From IMG/VR virus record IMGVR_UViG_3300025082_000022, positions 1-38,995 of that record: DNA of 38,995 nucleotides; one strand, given 5' to 3'. Below are positions 5,472-37,490 of this stretch, piece by piece. The notes beneath the pieces are model-generated. The model was not told the origin of the DNA and did no database searches. It saw only the letters and a list, made by a program, of their open reading frames with translations. The position numbers were made by a program, and so were the translations under genes. Source of the stretch: a virus. Position 1 is the stretch's first letter. Each line of letters begins with the position of its first letter.

Positions 5472-5662
5472 AATTAGAATCTGGAACGTATCGTTGGCAA
5501 AAAAATAACATTAGCTTTCAAGGTCTTGTCGGGGATAAATTTGCGCATGTCCAATTCCGGGAAAACGGCAAATGGAAAGTTGATAACTCGGTTAAAACAA
5601 ACGAAGAAGTCCGTGCAATTTCACAGCATAAAGACACTGAGTTTTTTGGGAAACTTATTTGA
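5468..5662 (+). CDS. Small hypothetical protein
   Basis: 64 residues, beta-rich pattern (SGTYRWQKNNISFQGLV, FAHVQFRENGKWKVDN). ATG overlaps the upstream stop by 4 bases (ATGA) and its TGA overlaps the TTG used by the next frame. No recognisable domain. Confidence 0.6.
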   Translation: MKLESGTYRWQKNNISFQGLVGDKFAHVQFRENGKWKVDNSVKTNEEVRAISQHKDTEFFGKLI

Positions 5663-5985
5663 AAATTACAAACAAAGTGAGCAAGGATGAATACGAAAAA
5701 ATCAAAAATATACGTCGAGGTCCCAGCCATAGTGCCCTACACAAGAGCAACAAGGAATCAGATTTTCTCCGGGTACACAACGAAGCAAAACAAACGCTAC
5801 GTGATATTCAAGGCCTTGTTTCAAATCAACTGTTTACTGGCGATGTCTCGGCCTCAATTATCTCAATTGGGAATACCAGGTCAGATGTGGACAATATCAC
5901 TAAAGCCGCTCTTGATTCAGCGCAAGGAATTATTTACTCAAACGATAAACAAGTCTGGAAAATCCATGCTGAACGTAGAGTTTAA
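5659..5985 (+). CDS. RusA-type Holliday junction resolvase, frame carrying the catalytic motif (frame-split gene)
   Basis: This frame opens with TTG (TTGA overlap with the upstream stop) and gives 108 residues. Its C-terminal half has the RusA signature: TGDVSASIISI, then RSDVDNITKAALDSAQG and IIYSNDKQVWKIHAERR. It supplies the Asp-x-Asp-Asn metal site, the conserved Lys, and the Asn-Asp of the last catalytic motif. RusA dimers resolve Holliday junctions and branched DNA before packaging. The first ~45 residues do not look like a RusA N-terminus, whereas the overlapping frame (5687-6004) does, and that frame also ends on the ATGA of the next gene. The gene therefore looks split by two compensating single-base shifts, near 5800-5830 and near 5980. 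Confidence 0.6.
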   Translation: MKITNKVSKDEYEKIKNIRRGPSHSALHKSNKESDFLRVHNEAKQTLRDIQGLVSNQLFTGDVSASIISIGNTRSDVDNITKAALDSAQGIIYSNDKQVWKIHAERRV

Positions 5986-6004
5986 ATTGGAAGAATCACA
6001 ATGA
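5687..6004 (+). pseudogene. Overlapping frame with RusA-like N- and C-termini
   Basis: This 105-residue frame starts at ATG 5687. Its beginning, IYVEVPAIVPYTRATRNQ then GYTTKQNKRY, resembles the N-terminal strand and Arg-rich motif of RusA proteins (VPxxPxxRxR...Y). Its end, VEFKLEESQ, resembles the final RusA strand, and its TGA overlaps the ATG at 6001 as in other operon joints. The middle (NCLLAMSRPQLSQLG...) is unlike RusA; the catalytic part is in the other frame. No convincing slippery heptamer is visible, so an inactivating indel pair or sequence errors are more likely than programmed shifting. Confidence 0.4.
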
Positions 6005-6423
6005 CATTTGATACTTTTTTAAAAGCTCTACAAATCACCTTTGAGGCAACTGTTCTAATCCTGTTTTTTACTATTGTTTACGTTTCAAACCAAGCCTTTC
6101 GCTCGATACTAAAAACAGCCCTCTTGAGAATAAAAACCGTTTTAGCCAAATTAAACCCCGTCCGAAAAATTAACAAACATCTTCTTGGTGATGTTGATGG
6201 CAAATTAAATATATATATTTCCGTTTTAAAATACATTCTTGTGGCACTAGCTTTTCTACTAATCGTACACTCGCTATATTCAATCCAAAAATCAAAAGAA
6301 ACAAACACAGAGAACTCTTATTCGCCACCTCATGGCTCCGAGAGCATTGAATACACCCCCGGAGATACTACCGTTCACAACCATGACCAGGGCGATGCTT
6401 TTTATCCAGAAGGAGGGGGTTAG
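6001..6423 (+). CDS. Two-pass membrane protein of unknown function
   Basis: 140 residues with two hydrophobic segments, about 12-34 (ALQITFEATVLILFFTIVYV) and about 73-93 (VLKYILVALAFLLIVHSLY). A basic loop joins them, and a 45-residue hydrophilic tail is rich in Ser, Pro, His and Gly (HGSESIEYTP ... YPEGGG). It sits in the early operon between the resolvase and the RNA-processing genes, away from the lysis genes, so a holin role is unlikely. Superinfection exclusion or host-membrane modification is possible but unsupported by a motif. Confidence 0.65.
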   Translation: MTFDTFLKALQITFEATVLILFFTIVYVSNQAFRSILKTALLRIKTVLAKLNPVRKINKHLLGDVDGKLNIYISVLKYILVALAFLLIVHSLYSIQKSKETNTENSYSPPHGSESIEYTPGDTTVHNHDQGDAFYPEGGG

Positions 6424-6425
6424 CA

Positions 6426-7169
6426 TTGGGACGACGATTTGTTGTCGGGGATATCCACGGGGCTCACAAGGCCCTCAGGCAAGTCCTAGAACGGTCGCAT
6501 TTTGACTATGACAACGATTTTCTAGTAATCATCGGGGATGTCTGTGATGGGTACCCAGAAACGAAGGAGTGTGTTGATGAGCTGCTAAAAATTAAAAACA
6601 GAGTTTTCGTAGTGGGGAATCATGATTTGTGGTTTGTTGATTGGATTAAAACTGGAGACAAACCGCCGATATGGACCAACCAGGGTGGTGAAGCCTCTCT
6701 TGAATCTTATGGCCACTCTAAATGGGAGCCGCGCATTATCCCAGACATTCCCGATAACCACAGAGATTTTTGGCTTAATTACGTCCCATATTATTTGACT
6801 AAACAAAATAAACTTTTCGTTCATGGCGGATTCAAATTTAAAACCTTTGTTACCAACGGGAGCCTTGTCGCATATAAGGCGGAATTATATGAAGATTTGG
6901 ATAAACAGGGACCGGAATGTTTGGCCTGGGACAGAGATTTATTCGGGTTTACCCGAACTCGAGAATTAAGAATAGGCCCATTCGAAGAGATTTTTATTGG
7001 CCATACCTCAACAGAATCGTTTTCGTTAGACCCTGTACATAGATGTAATGTTTGGAACGTGGATCAAGGCGCTGGATGGGGAGGAAGACTGACCCTCTTG
7101 GATATTGATTCCAAGGAATTTTGGTCTTCAGATAAAACAAAGGAATTATACGATGGATTTGGGAGATAA
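6426..7169 (+). CDS. PPP-type metallophosphoesterase (lambda phosphatase / Pnkp phosphatase-like)
   Basis: 247 residues with every binuclear-metal motif of the calcineurin-like PPP family: GDIHG (8-12), GDVCDG (37-42, the usual Arg after GDxxD replaced by Gly), GNHD (64-67), HGG (133-135), WDRD (168-171) and GHT (192-194). Members include lambda protein phosphatase and the 2',3'-cyclic phosphodiesterase/phosphatase domain of bacterial Pnkp. The start is TTG, supported by AGGAGGGGG eight bases upstream. The stop is directly followed by the ATG of the RNA ligase, so the two are co-translated. That pairing favours an RNA-end-healing job over protein dephosphorylation, but the sequence alone does not decide. 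Confidence 0.87.
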   Translation: MGRRFVVGDIHGAHKALRQVLERSHFDYDNDFLVIIGDVCDGYPETKECVDELLKIKNRVFVVGNHDLWFVDWIKTGDKPPIWTNQGGEASLESYGHSKWEPRIIPDIPDNHRDFWLNYVPYYLTKQNKLFVHGGFKFKTFVTNGSLVAYKAELYEDLDKQGPECLAWDRDLFGFTRTRELRIGPFEEIFIGHTSTESFSLDPVHRCNVWNVDQGAGWGGRLTLLDIDSKEFWSSDKTKELYDGFGR

Positions 7170-8177
7170 ATGAGAAAATTAGCCACAATAAGAAGAATTA
7201 GCAAAATCCACCCGATACCCGATGCTGAAAACATTGAGCTAGCCATAATTGATGGATGGCAAGTGGTGGTGAAAAAACATGAGTTTCGACCGGGCGACCT
7301 AGGGATTTACTGTGAAATTGACTCTTTTTTGCCCATGACGGATCAATTTGAGTTCCTGAGCTCTCGAGGGCTTCAAACTATAGCCAATGGCACCCAGGGG
7401 CATAGGTTAAAAACTGCCAAGCTCTGTGGTCAAATTAGCCAAGGGCTTTTTATTCCCATCCCGTTCATAATCCCGGATAACATATCTAAAATCGAGGGGT
7501 TCGATTGCACTGAGGTGCTGGGAATCCAATTATATGAGCTCAAAATACCAGCGGAACTTAATGGCGAGGTAAAAGGCCCCCTACCATCCTTTATCCAAAA
7601 AACTGATGAAGAGCGGATTCAAAACCACCCCGACTATTTTGAGCGGTGGGCCGGCCACAAATTTACGGTTACTGAAAAATTGGACGGAACAAGTTTCACC
7701 GCCTACCTTAACAAGGGAAAATTTGGCGTTTGCGGCCGAAATTATGAGTTTAACCTGGATACCCAAAAGAAAAATACGTATTTACAAGTTGCGAAAAGCC
7801 TCGACTTAGAAAGAAGACTTCGTGTATTAGGAAAGAATATTGCGATTCAAGGCGAATTAATTGGGGAAGGCATCCAAAAAAACAGATACAAAATAAAAGG
7901 CCACGCCGTCCGATTCTTCACCGTTTTTGATATAGATAAGCGCCGCCCAATGTCCCCAAATGCAACCCTCAAATTTCTTAAAAATATCGACCTTAAGCCT
8001 GTCCCTGTAATCAAAAACGGCTTAGAGTTTAGCTTTAATATAGACTCGATTCTTTCTTACGCCGAAGGAAAATCGGAGCTTTCGGATTCAACTCGAGAAG
8101 GCCTTGTTTTCCGACACACTGATGACTCTAGGATTTCTTTTAAAGTCATTAGCAATAAGTTTTTACTAAATGAGTAG
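7170..8177 (+). CDS. ATP-dependent RNA ligase (DRB0094/Rnl5-like, N-terminal OB domain)
   Basis: 335 residues. The N-terminus (MRKLATIRRISKIHPIPDAENIELAIIDGW) is the OB-like domain typical of the Deinococcus DRB0094-type ligases. The nucleotidyltransferase domain shows motif I EKLDGTS with the adenylated Lys170, motif Ia CGRN (~188-191), motif III IQGELIG with Glu229, motif IIIa FFTVFDID, motif IV REGLVF with Glu310, and motif V SFKVIS with Lys325. It would seal 5'-phosphate/3'-OH RNA ends. It starts at the base after the phosphoesterase stop; that enzyme could remove 2',3'-cyclic or 3' phosphates to make the ligatable end. All catalytic residues are present, so it should be active. Confidence 0.9.
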   Translation: MRKLATIRRISKIHPIPDAENIELAIIDGWQVVVKKHEFRPGDLGIYCEIDSFLPMTDQFEFLSSRGLQTIANGTQGHRLKTAKLCGQISQGLFIPIPFIIPDNISKIEGFDCTEVLGIQLYELKIPAELNGEVKGPLPSFIQKTDEERIQNHPDYFERWAGHKFTVTEKLDGTSFTAYLNKGKFGVCGRNYEFNLDTQKKNTYLQVAKSLDLERRLRVLGKNIAIQGELIGEGIQKNRYKIKGHAVRFFTVFDIDKRRPMSPNATLKFLKNIDLKPVPVIKNGLEFSFNIDSILSYAEGKSELSDSTREGLVFRHTDDSRISFKVISNKFLLNE

Positions 8178-8180
8178 CCG

Positions 8181-8369
8181 ATGAAACACATCATAGAAAC
8201 AAAACATTTTTACCAATGCGAAATTTGCAAAGGAAAACACGATACGAAAGAGGACGCCCGTGAGTGTGAAGAAAGGCCCCTGAGCAAAAACCCTTATTTA
8301 CTTGCGATAAACATCTTTTCGATGAGAAATTTTCACTATCAAAATCACGAGCTCTTTATCCCAAATTGA
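8181..8369 (+). CDS. Small zinc-finger-like protein, last gene of the early operon
   Basis: 62 residues. The N-terminal half, YQCEICKGKHDTKEDARECE, has Cys-x2-Cys, His and Cys in the spacing of small phage zinc-binding proteins. The C-terminal 28 residues are encoded antisense to the toxin gene (8298-8558), which converges on it, so the tail may be a by-product of a truncation when the toxin-antitoxin module arrived. The start follows the ligase stop by three bases. No strong Shine-Dalgarno, so coupling is likely. Confidence 0.55.
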   Translation: MKHIIETKHFYQCEICKGKHDTKEDARECEERPLSKNPYLLAINIFSMRNFHYQNHELFIPN

Positions 8370-8558
8370 ATAAAGGACCCTATAATTACCTATGCGAAAA
8401 CGATAAACATTTTCACTTGCGGCCAACTTCTTATACCCCATTGGCCTAGGGTTTAAGCTTAAGTTTGAAATTTTATCTAAAAGTCGAGCCTGGATGTTTT
8501 TGGGCAGATTCTTTAATTGTTTTTTAACCCCAGTTTTATAGGTAATAGCATACCCCAT
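8298..8558 (-). CDS. RelE/ParE-family toxin
   Basis: 86 residues: KKQLKNLPKNIQARLLDKISNLSLNPRP, then YRFRIGNYRVLYSI and ISHRKDVYRK, the standard strand-helix-strand pattern of RelE toxins. The basic residues at YRFRIGNYR and HRKDVYR match those used for ribosome-dependent mRNA cleavage. Its ATG directly abuts the antitoxin TAA (TAAATG). It is probably a type II toxin held in check by the upstream gene and may stabilise the prophage or exclude other phages. Confidence 0.88.
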   Translation of the reverse strand: MGYAITYKTGVKKQLKNLPKNIQARLLDKISNLSLNPRPMGYKKLAASENVYRFRIGNYRVLYSIWDKELVILIVKISHRKDVYRK

Positions 8559-8810
8559 TTAATCTAGTCCAAGCTCCTCTTTTAGCTTGTCGTGGGTAAT
8601 TACAGGCTCATTTCCATTTAGAATCGCAAGCGCATCCTTAAGGTCTCTTTCGTCCTCAAGTTCCTCATAATATCTTAGATCCTCAATGGGAATAATGGCC
8701 GCGACCTCCTTCCCATGCTTTGTAAGAATCGTTGTATCCTTTGCGTAGGACACAGTATTTATTAGCTCAGCGAAGTTTGTTCTTGCCTCGGTGGTAGTTA
8801 GATTAGCCAT
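8559..8810 (-). CDS. Phd/YefM-family antitoxin
   Basis: 83 residues: MANLTTTEARTNFAELINTVSYAKDTTILTKHGKEVAAIIP is the Phd/YefM DNA-binding fold, followed by an acidic C-terminus (ELEDERDLKDALAILNGNE) that would wrap the toxin. AGGAGG lies just upstream of the ATG. Such proteins repress their own promoter; an inverted repeat lies in the upstream region (8833-8847). Confidence 0.9.
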   Translation of the reverse strand: MANLTTTEARTNFAELINTVSYAKDTTILTKHGKEVAAIIPIEDLRYYEELEDERDLKDALAILNGNEPVITHDKLKEELGLD

Positions 8811-9758: not shown

Positions 9759-10880
9759 TTACGCCGGATGTAATTCCATAGCTTCCCGTCTGGGGAACGA
9801 ACTGGCAACAGAGGCGATCTTTTCAATAGAATTTTTCTTATGAGCATCAGTTAAGTGCGCATATATCATTGTAACCTTTATATCCTTATGTCCAAGCAGT
9901 TCTTTGATTGTCACGATATCAACCCCATTCATTGCCAGGTGACTAGCGAACGAGTGTCTCATGGTGTGTAATGATGTGTCCGGCATCCCTAAATGGGTTA
10001 CAAGTCTTTTGAACGCCTTTCCTATATTATCCATCTTTCCGCCCATTTGGTGACAAAACACATATTTCATTTGATTGTTGTTGCGGCGCATTACCCTATC
10101 GTGCAAAGGATCGATATAATATTCCTTCAAGAACAACAATTCCTGATGTAGCGTTGAATTAATAGGTATCGCCCGGTCCTCGCAGCCTTTAGTATTGAAA
10201 ATGATGCTATTTTTCACGTAGATTAACTTATTGTGAAAATCGATGTCAGACCATTTGAGATTAGTCATTTCGCCCGCCCTGAGCCCGGAATTTAACCCCA
10301 TTGTAATAATCGACTGTAAATATCGGCTCGAATTGTCAAATAGGCGCTTAATTTCTTCATCAAAAAAGAATCGAGGCATTTTTCGCGTCTCTCGTAACTT
10401 TGTCGTTTTAGTAGTGGCTACAACATATGACCACTCCTTAGCAATTTTTAACATATTGGAAATGCAGTTTAAATCAACATTTACTGTTCTAGGCGTCACG
10501 CCCTCTTTTAACCTATAAGCCTTAAAGCCCTCGATTAATTCCTGAGTAATCCCCTGCAACTCTATAGACTCTTTGTCATACCCTGGCAAAGTGTCCATGT
10601 ACCTATAAAGGTTCTTAATAGAGTCTTTTTTCCGCATTAGCGTTCTGGGTCTCTGGTTACAAATGACCCAGTTTAAATATTTTTCCTCAAAAATTTTCAA
10701 CATGATTCGATTAGGCAGCTCAATGCCCAGTCTTTTTAAGGATAACTCCTCCTGTATTTTTCTTAGGGCTATTGAGGCGATGGGTTTTGACACCCTACCC
10801 AGCCCTCTTTTTATTTGTCTCCCATTGATCCTATAGGTTATAAAGTACGTGCCAGACTTTCGTTTATGTAGAGAAGCCAT
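9759..10880 (-). CDS. int: Tyrosine recombinase / phage integrase
   Basis: 373 residues from the ATG at 10880, which has AAAGG upstream; an in-frame extension to 10982 gives 34 atypical residues and contains the control region, so it is rejected. The N-terminal arm-binding part (SLHKRKSGTYFITYRINGRQIKRGLG) and SAM-like core-binding domain precede the catalytic domain. Catalytic residues: Arg201 (GLRAGEM), Lys231 (NTKGCED), His305 and Arg308 (HTMRH), His331 (GHKD) and the nucleophile Tyr340 (TMIYAHL). It would integrate and excise the phage at an attachment site not identified here. It marks the phage as temperate. Confidence 0.95.
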   Translation of the reverse strand: MASLHKRKSGTYFITYRINGRQIKRGLGRVSKPIASIALRKIQEELSLKRLGIELPNRIMLKIFEEKYLNWVICNQRPRTLMRKKDSIKNLYRYMDTLPGYDKESIELQGITQELIEGFKAYRLKEGVTPRTVNVDLNCISNMLKIAKEWSYVVATTKTTKLRETRKMPRFFFDEEIKRLFDNSSRYLQSIITMGLNSGLRAGEMTNLKWSDIDFHNKLIYVKNSIIFNTKGCEDRAIPINSTLHQELLFLKEYYIDPLHDRVMRRNNNQMKYVFCHQMGGKMDNIGKAFKRLVTHLGMPDTSLHTMRHSFASHLAMNGVDIVTIKELLGHKDIKVTMIYAHLTDAHKKNSIEKIASVASSFPRREAMELHPA

Positions 10881-11164
10881 AAAATTACCTTTCATTAATA
10901 TGTAGAGGTATGAAACTAACTGATTATTTAGTTTGCATTTGCAAATGGTATCGAATAGGTCACACAATGTATTGTTAGCCACTTTAAGCTGCTAGACTTA
11001 TTTATTGCCATTTTATCTGTTTGCAATATGAAGTCGCCAACAAAATGATAGTAGAAAAGAGCTAGTAATTGGTGAGAAAAAACTTCAAACATAATATTGA
11101 ACCTCAGCCCAAGGGTATCACCCTCGGCGTGTTGAAATCAACACAAAAATGATATGCTGTGGGC
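10881..11164. promoter_or_regulatory. Divergent control region between integrase and RHH regulator
   Basis: No gene fits in these 284 bases. They hold inverted repeats TTTGCA-TT-TGCAAA (10932-10945), GGGT-ATC-ACCC (11113-11123) and GTGTTGA-AA-TCAACAC (11129-11144). The last overlaps the proposed -35 region of the rightward RHH gene and is a good candidate autoregulatory operator. The integrase promoter must also lie here; the attachment site may as well. Confidence 0.5.
11132..11158 (+). promoter_or_regulatory. Promoter of the RHH regulator, probably leaderless
   Basis: TTGAAA (11132-11137) and TATGCT (11153-11158) spaced by 15 bases. The -10 box ends exactly six bases before ATG 11165, so transcription would start at or next to the start codon. 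No Shine-Dalgarno precedes the ATG. Spacing is shorter than ideal. Confidence 0.45.
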
Positions 11165-35723: not shown

Positions 35724-35798
35724 TGGCTCCCCGGGCTGGATTCGAACCAGCGACACAGCGGTTAACAGCCGCTTGCTCTTCCGCTGAGCTACCGGGGA
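35724..35798 (-). tRNA. tRNA-Asn (anticodon GTT)
   Basis: A full cloverleaf on the minus strand: acceptor TCCCCGG/CCGGGGA (35798-35792 with 35734-35728), D stem GCTC/GAGC, anticodon stem AGCGG/CCGCT with loop CTGTTAA (anticodon GTT at 35766-35764), T arm GCTGG-TTCGAAT-CCAGC, discriminator G at 35727 and encoded CCA at 35726-35724. The TerS stop codon abuts its 5' end, so it is excised from the late transcript. Confidence 0.96.
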
Positions 35799-36632: not shown

Positions 36633-37490
36633 TTATAGCGTAAATTCCAAAAGCTTTTTTGCTCGGGATGGGTGCTTAAGTTTATTTAGGGCGGCTACCT
36701 CTATTTGCCGAATTCGCTCCCGAGTCACTTTAAACTTGGTCCCAACTTCTTCCAGCGTTTTAGGTTTGCCATCCCCAAGCCCAAATCGAAGTTTCAAAAC
36801 TTCGCCTTCTCGCTCAGTCAACTCATCCAACACTTCTGACAGCGTATTTCTTAAGGATTCACGAACCAAAGTTCTATCATGAACTTGCTGGCTTTCATAT
36901 TCTACGAACTCACCCAAAGAGCCACCCTCTTCCTCCCCGACTGGTAAATCTAAAGAAACAGGGGCCTGGGAAATCTTTATGATCTCCATTACCTTTTGAA
37001 CCGGCAAATCAATTACCTCGGATATTTCTTTTTCAGTCGGTTTTCTTGCCAGGCTCATTGTCAACTCCCTAGAAACTTTTCGGAGCTTATTAATGATTTC
37101 TATCATATGAACCGGAATTCGAATTGTTCTGGACTGGTCTGCAATAGCCCGCGAAATCGCCTGACGAATCCACCATGTGGCATACGTACTAAACTTATAC
37201 CCCTTGTTATGGTCAAACTTCTCAACCGCTCGAATCACTCCAATATTTCCTTCTTGAATCAGGTCCAAAAATGGAATGCCTCGACCAATATGTTTTTTTG
37301 CAATACTTACAACCAATCTTAGATTGGCAACAATCATTTTGCTCTTAGCCTCCAAATTCCCTTCCAAAATATCTTCAGCTAAAGATATTTCCTCCTCTTT
37401 GCTAAGTAGTTTTTGTTTGCCAATCTCCGTTAAATAAGCACCGACGCACTCTCGCTCAATTAACTCGTTTTGCTTCTCTTTTCCCGGCAT
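36633..37490 (-). CDS. RpoD/SigA-like sigma-70 factor encoded by the phage
   Basis: 285 residues. Region 1.2 (about 12-44, [25 protein letters not shown]); region 2 (47-115) with [36 protein letters not shown] and [20 protein letters not shown], where the -10-reading residues agree with primary sigma factors; region 3 (118-195, [23 protein letters not shown]); region 4 (205-282) with [20 protein letters not shown], identical in its recognition helix to primary sigmas. Region 1.1 and the large non-conserved insert are absent. It should form holoenzyme and read near-consensus promoters. GGAGAGAGA precedes the ATG. Location upstream of the late genes suggests it drives or boosts late transcription. 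Confidence 0.93.

Follow-up and report, generated by a model that had tools for sequence, protein, structure and literature searches.

A phosphoesterase gene abutting an Rnl5-type RNA ligase gene in a virus record: a plausible RNA-repair pair in an uncommon arrangement

Phage RNA repair is known chiefly from T4 and large lytic phages. Here we asked whether two abutting genes, encoding a calcineurin-like phosphoesterase (PPE) and an RNA ligase of the Rnl5/DRB0094 type, form an RNA-repair cassette, as an earlier note on this DNA had proposed. The DNA analysed (the window) is a virus record of 38,995 bases. It carries integrase, terminase, portal-like and capsid genes, and thus represents a temperate tailed phage or prophage. 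The PPE and ligase genes are the last two of a same-strand run that includes exonucleases, an HNH gene, a replication initiator and RusA (Table 1). The PPE gene starts with TTG at 6426 and stops with TAA at 7167-7169, and the ligase ATG follows directly at 7170 on the same strand, confirming the gapless junction that had been described. The two are real and apparently intact genes for known kinds of enzyme, set in an uncommon arrangement. The toxin beyond the ligase falls within the ParE/RelE superfamily, and its RelE_StbE score is below the cut-off. Elsewhere in the window, an RpoD-like sigma-70 factor of 285 aa (36633-37490, minus strand) lies near a tRNA-Asn gene (35724-35798) and may be either a phage gene or host flank.

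Table 1. Features of the PPE-ligase locus, in window coordinates
Feature	Position	Strand	Basis or remark
Upstream same-strand genes (RusA-like resolvase, 140-aa ORF)	5659..6423	+	
RusA-like resolvase	5659-5985	+	Upstream of PPE
140-aa ORF	6001-6423	+	Upstream of PPE, same strand
AAGGAGG, ribosome-binding-like, shortly before PPE TTG start	6410..6416	+	Read directly
Calcineurin-like phosphoesterase (PPE), 247 aa, GDxxDG subfamily	6426..7169	+	Profiles, AlphaFold, Foldseek
PPE motif I GDIHG, residues 8-12	6447..6461	+	D9, H11, G12 invariant in relatives
PPE motif II GDVCDG, residues 37-42	6534..6551	+	Gly42 at place of PPP signature Arg
PPE motif III GNHD, residues 64-67	6615..6626	+	N65, H66 invariant
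PPE His133, metal ligand	6822..6824	+	Invariant in relatives
PPE Arg170	6933..6935	+	Aligned to lambda Arg of WNRE
PPE GHT, residues 192-194, His193 metal ligand	6999..7007	+	Invariant in relatives
Subfamily C-terminal tail S-D...LY...GR, residues 235-247	7128..7166	+	Not in lambda phosphatase
GGGAG, ribosome-binding-like, within PPE 3' end ahead of ligase ATG	7161..7165	+	Read directly
Rnl5/DRB0094-type RNA ligase, 335 aa	7170..8177	+	TIGR02306, NgrRnl 5cot
N-terminal OB-fold domain (PF21189), residues 4-97	7179..7460	+	
Adenylyltransferase domain (PF09414), residues 164-327	7659..8150	+	
Ligase motif I KLDG, Lys170 nucleophile	7677..7688	+	In register with NgrRnl KLDG
Convergent toxin-antitoxin pair, downstream of ligase	8298..8810	-	Profile matches
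ParE/RelE superfamily toxin	8298-8558	-	PF05016 E 1.1e-12
Phd/YefM antitoxin	8559-8810	-	Profile match
Tyrosine integrase	9759..10982	-	Phage_integrase E 1.2e-31; points to temperate phage

With a TIGR02306 score of 184.3 bits against a curated cut-off of 151.15, the ligase clearly belongs by its profile matches to the Rnl5/DRB0094 family, and by analogy with that family it would seal nicks. Matches to the PF21189 OB fold (E 4.9e-36) and to PF09414 (E 8.8e-27) accompany a full-length alignment to its best solved relative, NgrRnl (5cot; E 7.7e-73). Motif I (TEKLDG) is intact, Lys170 is invariant (alignment A2) and aligns with the NgrRnl structure, and the C-terminal SFK motif (S323-F324-K325) is conserved, in agreement with the earlier description of a DRB0094-type ligase with an intact active site. 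Sealing of 3'-OH/5'-phosphate nicks in duplex is an established property of the family. The OB fold, the adenylyltransferase domain and the KLDG lysine are shared with DraRnl (DRB0094) and NgrRnl; the setting differs, since the solved NgrRnl comes from a eukaryote, Naegleria, whereas the window ligase resides in a temperate phage and abuts a phosphoesterase. Rnl5 relatives were found in 323 of 50,697 phage records, each less than 60% identical to the window ligase. At two of the loci (L004 and L005, 3716-5786), the Rnl5 match is split in two parts and an ORF lies in the ~1 kb that separates them, possibly reflecting an intron or intein.

The enzyme family to which PPE belongs is usually annotated as serine/threonine phosphatase. 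PPE matches PF00149 (E 5.6e-14), and phrog_246 (NinI-like; E 2.4e-46) is its best PHROG. The metal ligands D9, H11, D38, N65, H133 and H193, as well as the catalytic-type H66, show little or no variation across ~105 relatives. The description of PPE as a PPP-type enzyme with all metal motifs therefore stands with respect to every metal ligand but not with respect to the PPP signature Arg, which is missing: lambda phosphatase has Arg at this position (GDxVDRG), whereas PPE has Gly42 (GDVCDG), as do 98 of 104 relatives. The other Arg on the phosphate side, Arg170, is retained by 104 of 105 relatives, and in the C-terminal tail S235 is invariant and R247 is present in 92 relatives. Based on these comparisons, PPE is assigned to a distinct subfamily of binuclear metallophosphoesterases. 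In a tree of 109 PPE sequences the window gene falls within a 16-row clade of Omnitrophota and viruses (support 95/97), which also contains the PPE of the Omnitrophota contig L198. One phage homolog (L056:3992-4699) has a single in-frame TAG at codon 62 (...NLI*VIGNHD...) but is intact elsewhere, and PPE is split at the same place in L057-L059 and L061; either stop-codon recoding or a real break is possible.

The AlphaFold model of PPE (pLDDT 94) retrieved lambda phosphatase (1g5b; E 1.7e-11) and the phosphatase domain of C. thermocellum Pnkp (CthPnkp; 4j6o; E 1.9e-11), which heals RNA ends, as its closest folds in Foldseek, with ApaH structures third. Lambda phosphatase and CthPnkp both hydrolyze 2',3'-cyclic nucleotides. 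Given these fold matches, RNA-end healing is allowed, albeit not singled out. Mutational work on CthPnkp forms the basis for tying the signature Arg to preference for monoesters versus diesters, and by analogy its loss may have shifted PPE from phosphomonoesters to diesters. The loss leaves the substrate preference of PPE ambiguous, and as such weighs against an RNA end as the substrate.

PPE shares with lambda phosphatase (NinI) its fold, metal ligands, catalytic-type histidine and a site near recombination genes, and one alternative is that it is a lambda-type protein or general phosphatase, its adjacency to the ligase being incidental. The best PHROG match fits this explanation, as do the location of lambda ninI near the NinG/Rap junction endonuclease, comparable to that of PPE near RusA, the proximity of a NinG gene to PPE in a Leptolyngbya phage, and the rarity of the ligase pairing described below. 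We nevertheless consider it distinctly improbable: PPE is ~20% identical to lambda phosphatase and just ~26-28% identical to NinI-like phage genes, its subfamily has GDxxDG in place of GDxVDRG together with an added SD..LY..GR C-terminal tail, and some of its relatives are grouped with RNA or NAD genes. The chance that PPE is instead an ApaH-like Np4N hydrolase or decapping enzyme appears very slim. Although apaH was the best, weak NCBIfam match, the GNHD motif is ApaH-like and ApaH structures rank among the fold matches, the score of 61.7 bits lies far below the ApaH cut-off of 176, and the alignment is good over approximately the first 70 residues alone.

Conservation of the pair was examined in three sets of 80 loci each (viral PPE, viral ligase and bacterial PPE) and in 285 Omnitrophota genomes. 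PPE and Rnl5 lay within ~1.2 kb of each other at four loci in all (the window, L070, L080 and L198). After de-replication, Rnl5 was present within four genes of PPE at 2 of 53 viral and 1 of 51 bacterial loci, none of them abutting; among the loci examined, direct abutment was limited to the window. Closeness of the two genes in PPE-bearing virus records did not exceed chance at 2.5 kb (P 0.23), and an excess at 12 kb (P 0.01) refers to a distance picked after the fact. A PF09414 ligase of some kind was found in 12 of 50 PPE-bearing virus records, not significantly near PPE. Among the Omnitrophota genomes, 41 had PPE and 4 had Rnl5; three of these 4 had both, one gene apart in one case. The named phages whose PPE genes are most closely related to that of the window, namely Cellulophaga phi40:1 and Calle_1, Leptolyngbya Lbo-JY46 and two huge uncultured phages, have no adjacent Rnl5, and the viral collections searched for the pair yielded no relatives of the window above 60% identity. 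The search for the same pair in other phages therefore mostly failed, and we rejected a conserved pair, for which L070, L080 and L198 were the only support across the viral, bacterial and Omnitrophota samples.

This rarity suits an explanation in which the two are unrelated cargo genes, brought together as random neighbors in a phage accessory slot ahead of the toxin-antitoxin pair and integrase: abutment is seen in the window only, and closeness in virus records is at chance level. Two observations argue against it. PPE is followed by Rnl5 on one strand at L080 and L198, with one gene between, and at L070, with three, and these loci are spread across the PPE tree; moreover, the stop/start abutment resembles that of a translated operon. 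We hold random placement to be quite unlikely.

The gene order at L080 is PPE, a small metallophosphoesterase, Rnl5, and the wider segment (L080:3989-7282) contains one Rnl5 ligase amid three metallophosphoesterase genes of different families. On the Omnitrophota contig (L198:446-6093), a DarT-like ADP-ribosyltransferase, a macrodomain (DarG-like) gene, one further gene, PPE, an SDYHFSH metallophosphoesterase and the Rnl5 ligase are arranged in this order on one strand. A divergent SDTHFGH metallophosphoesterase gave weak matches in 20 of 51 ligase records; we rejected it as an instance of the same pairing, as it represents another family and usually lies two or three genes upstream, and its nearness to Rnl5 is probably due in part to shared descent.

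The neighborhoods of relatives bear on function. Rnl5 genes neighbor cREC, Rnl1, other RNA ligases, CCA/polyA polymerase, AAA_33 kinases, HAD_PNKP and HAD_SAK. In two Omnitrophota loci (L263 and L266), a look at the sequence indicated that Rnl5 adjoins an AbiEi/AbiEii-like defense pair. Relatives of PPE neighbor KptA, Thg1, 2H, cREC, NADAR, macrodomains and NAMPT. Among phages, RlaP, NADAR, NAPRTase and HAD_SAK surround PPE at L056, Rnl1 is found at L091 and cREC at L073, and PRPP-synthetase-like and NAMPT genes stand beside PPE at three de-replicated viral loci (L038, L052 and L065). One phage locus (L069:1016-8134) encodes a macrodomain, KptA, Thg1, PPE, a 2H phosphoesterase and Nudix, with Thg1 directly ahead of PPE. 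Six Bacteroidota loci (L219, L244, L246, L251, L256 and L258), which represent at least two families (Flavobacteriaceae and Leadbetterellaceae), have KptA closely preceding PPE: no gene intervenes in four of them, a single gene does in the two Kordia loci, and NAMPT lies downstream in most. KptA was encoded in 15 of 50 PPE-bearing genomes, and was adjacent or one gene away in six. Adjacency to KptA as a general rule was rejected: 148 genomes from a single order yielded 11 clear PPE genes, just one of which lies beside KptA. The density of repair markers, which were chosen out of the neighbor genes themselves, showed no sharp or clear drop with distance from PPE, and NAD-salvage genes adjoin PPE relatives as often as RNA ligases do.

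The partner genes of PPE relatives are among those named in published accounts of NAD-dependent RNA repair in phages, which treat such clusters as RNA-repair systems and make passing mention of occasional calcineurin-like enzymes (PMC9503650, PMC7824862); we did not find the PPE subfamily singled out in the literature of this field that we examined. The KptA/2H/sirtuin systems (PMC9503650) share with PPE relatives the company of KptA, 2H, cREC, macro and NADAR. Among the best 25 of 36 families listed for the window, in contrast, none of these partners was detected, nor was a 5'-kinase, KptA (PF01885), 2H, HAD_PNKP, Hen1, NAD-salvage, macro or Nudix match.

The same neighborhoods support the main rival to an RNA-end substrate, namely that PPE acts on soluble ADP-ribose 1''-phosphate or on the 1'',2''-cyclic phosphate that KptA produces, either returning ADP-ribose to NAD synthesis or removing a host signal, with the ligase an independent RNA-repair neighbor. 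Consistent with this possibility, NAMPT and PRPP-synthetase-like genes adjoin PPE not only in the three viral loci but also in Bacteroidota (L244, L251, L225 and L258), Nudix, Sir2, ADP-ribosylglycohydrolase-like and macrodomain genes surround PPE relatives, and pathways for regenerating NAD from ADP-ribose have been described in phages (PMC12774641, PMC13232231). The lack of NAD-salvage, macro, KptA and Nudix matches among those 25 window families speaks against it, as does the fact that some PPE relatives accompany the RNA enzymes Thg1, RlaP and Rnl1, and we regard an ADP-ribose phosphate substrate as unlikely.

An RNA-repair role for the pair is plausible, since both families have relatives in phage RNA-repair or NAD-recycling clusters. 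The window shares with the C. thermocellum Pnkp/Hen1 system (4j6o) a phosphatase superfamily fold and the logic of healing followed by sealing. Unlike Pnkp, which joins kinase, phosphatase and ligase in one polypeptide and has Hen1 as partner, the window encodes two proteins, with neither a kinase nor Hen1 detected, and its ligase is of another family; healing and sealing enzymes are thus separate, as had been stated. The window likewise differs from T4 Pnkp/Rnl1 in having no detected kinase and a ligase of the Rnl5 rather than the Rnl1 family (PF09511). A P-loop scan of the window found no P-loop kinase, the motif occurring only in the terminase, with a P-loop-like string in one structural gene, and so agrees with the earlier remark that no polynucleotide kinase is visible.

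This absence constrains the possible targets. Both tRNA-cutting toxins and RelE leave 5'-OH ends at the breaks they make, and RelE-family toxins target mRNA. With no 5'-kinase, KptA or 2H detected in the window, the pair alone cannot mend RelE- or tRNase-type breaks; it would either use a host kinase or serve breaks with 5'-phosphate ends. Repair of the phage's own RelE-type cleavage, which the earlier note had offered as one purpose, was rejected as the primary role, as it would need a 5'-kinase and its target would be mRNA.

The analysis shows where the genes lie, the predicted fold, the catalytic residues, the family membership and the surroundings of relatives; what the pair acts on, in which sequence and against which target we infer as follows. 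The two genes would form an RNA-mending unit that closes the 3' end of a temperate phage replication/recombination operon. PPE would remove or open the 2',3'-cyclic or 2'/3'-phosphate on cut RNA to leave a 3'-OH, and the Rnl5 ligase, having adenylated itself at Lys170 with ATP, would join this 3'-OH to a 5'-phosphate provided by a host or unseen kinase or already present at the break. Were PPE to leave a 2'-phosphate, a KptA-type enzyme would remove it later, which would explain why some PPE relatives lie beside KptA, Thg1, 2H and NAD-recycling genes. We consider end-cleaning by PPE and nick sealing by the ligase, with the 5'-kinase supplied from elsewhere, the best-supported explanation, at slightly less than an even chance. 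Of the cassette originally proposed, the end-healing-like fold, the nick-sealing ligase family and the repair surroundings of relatives hold up, and the rarely conserved pairing counts against it.

A broader and more speculative view, possible if somewhat unlikely in our estimation, is that GDxxDG phosphoesterases are an unrecognized component of NAD-dependent RNA repair in phages and Bacteroidota, preparing 2'/3'-phosphate RNA ends or clearing ADP-ribose phosphate made by KptA, and that the window carries a stripped-down version coupled to Rnl5. If the pair does repair RNA, a small temperate phage equipped both to clean and to seal RNA ends would widen the known range of phage RNA repair. The significance lies mainly in the PPE subfamily, and less in the pair: its recurring minority link to KptA, Thg1, 2H and NAMPT provides a testable substrate hypothesis, and the link between PPE and KptA touches on the question of what purpose bacterial KptA serves.
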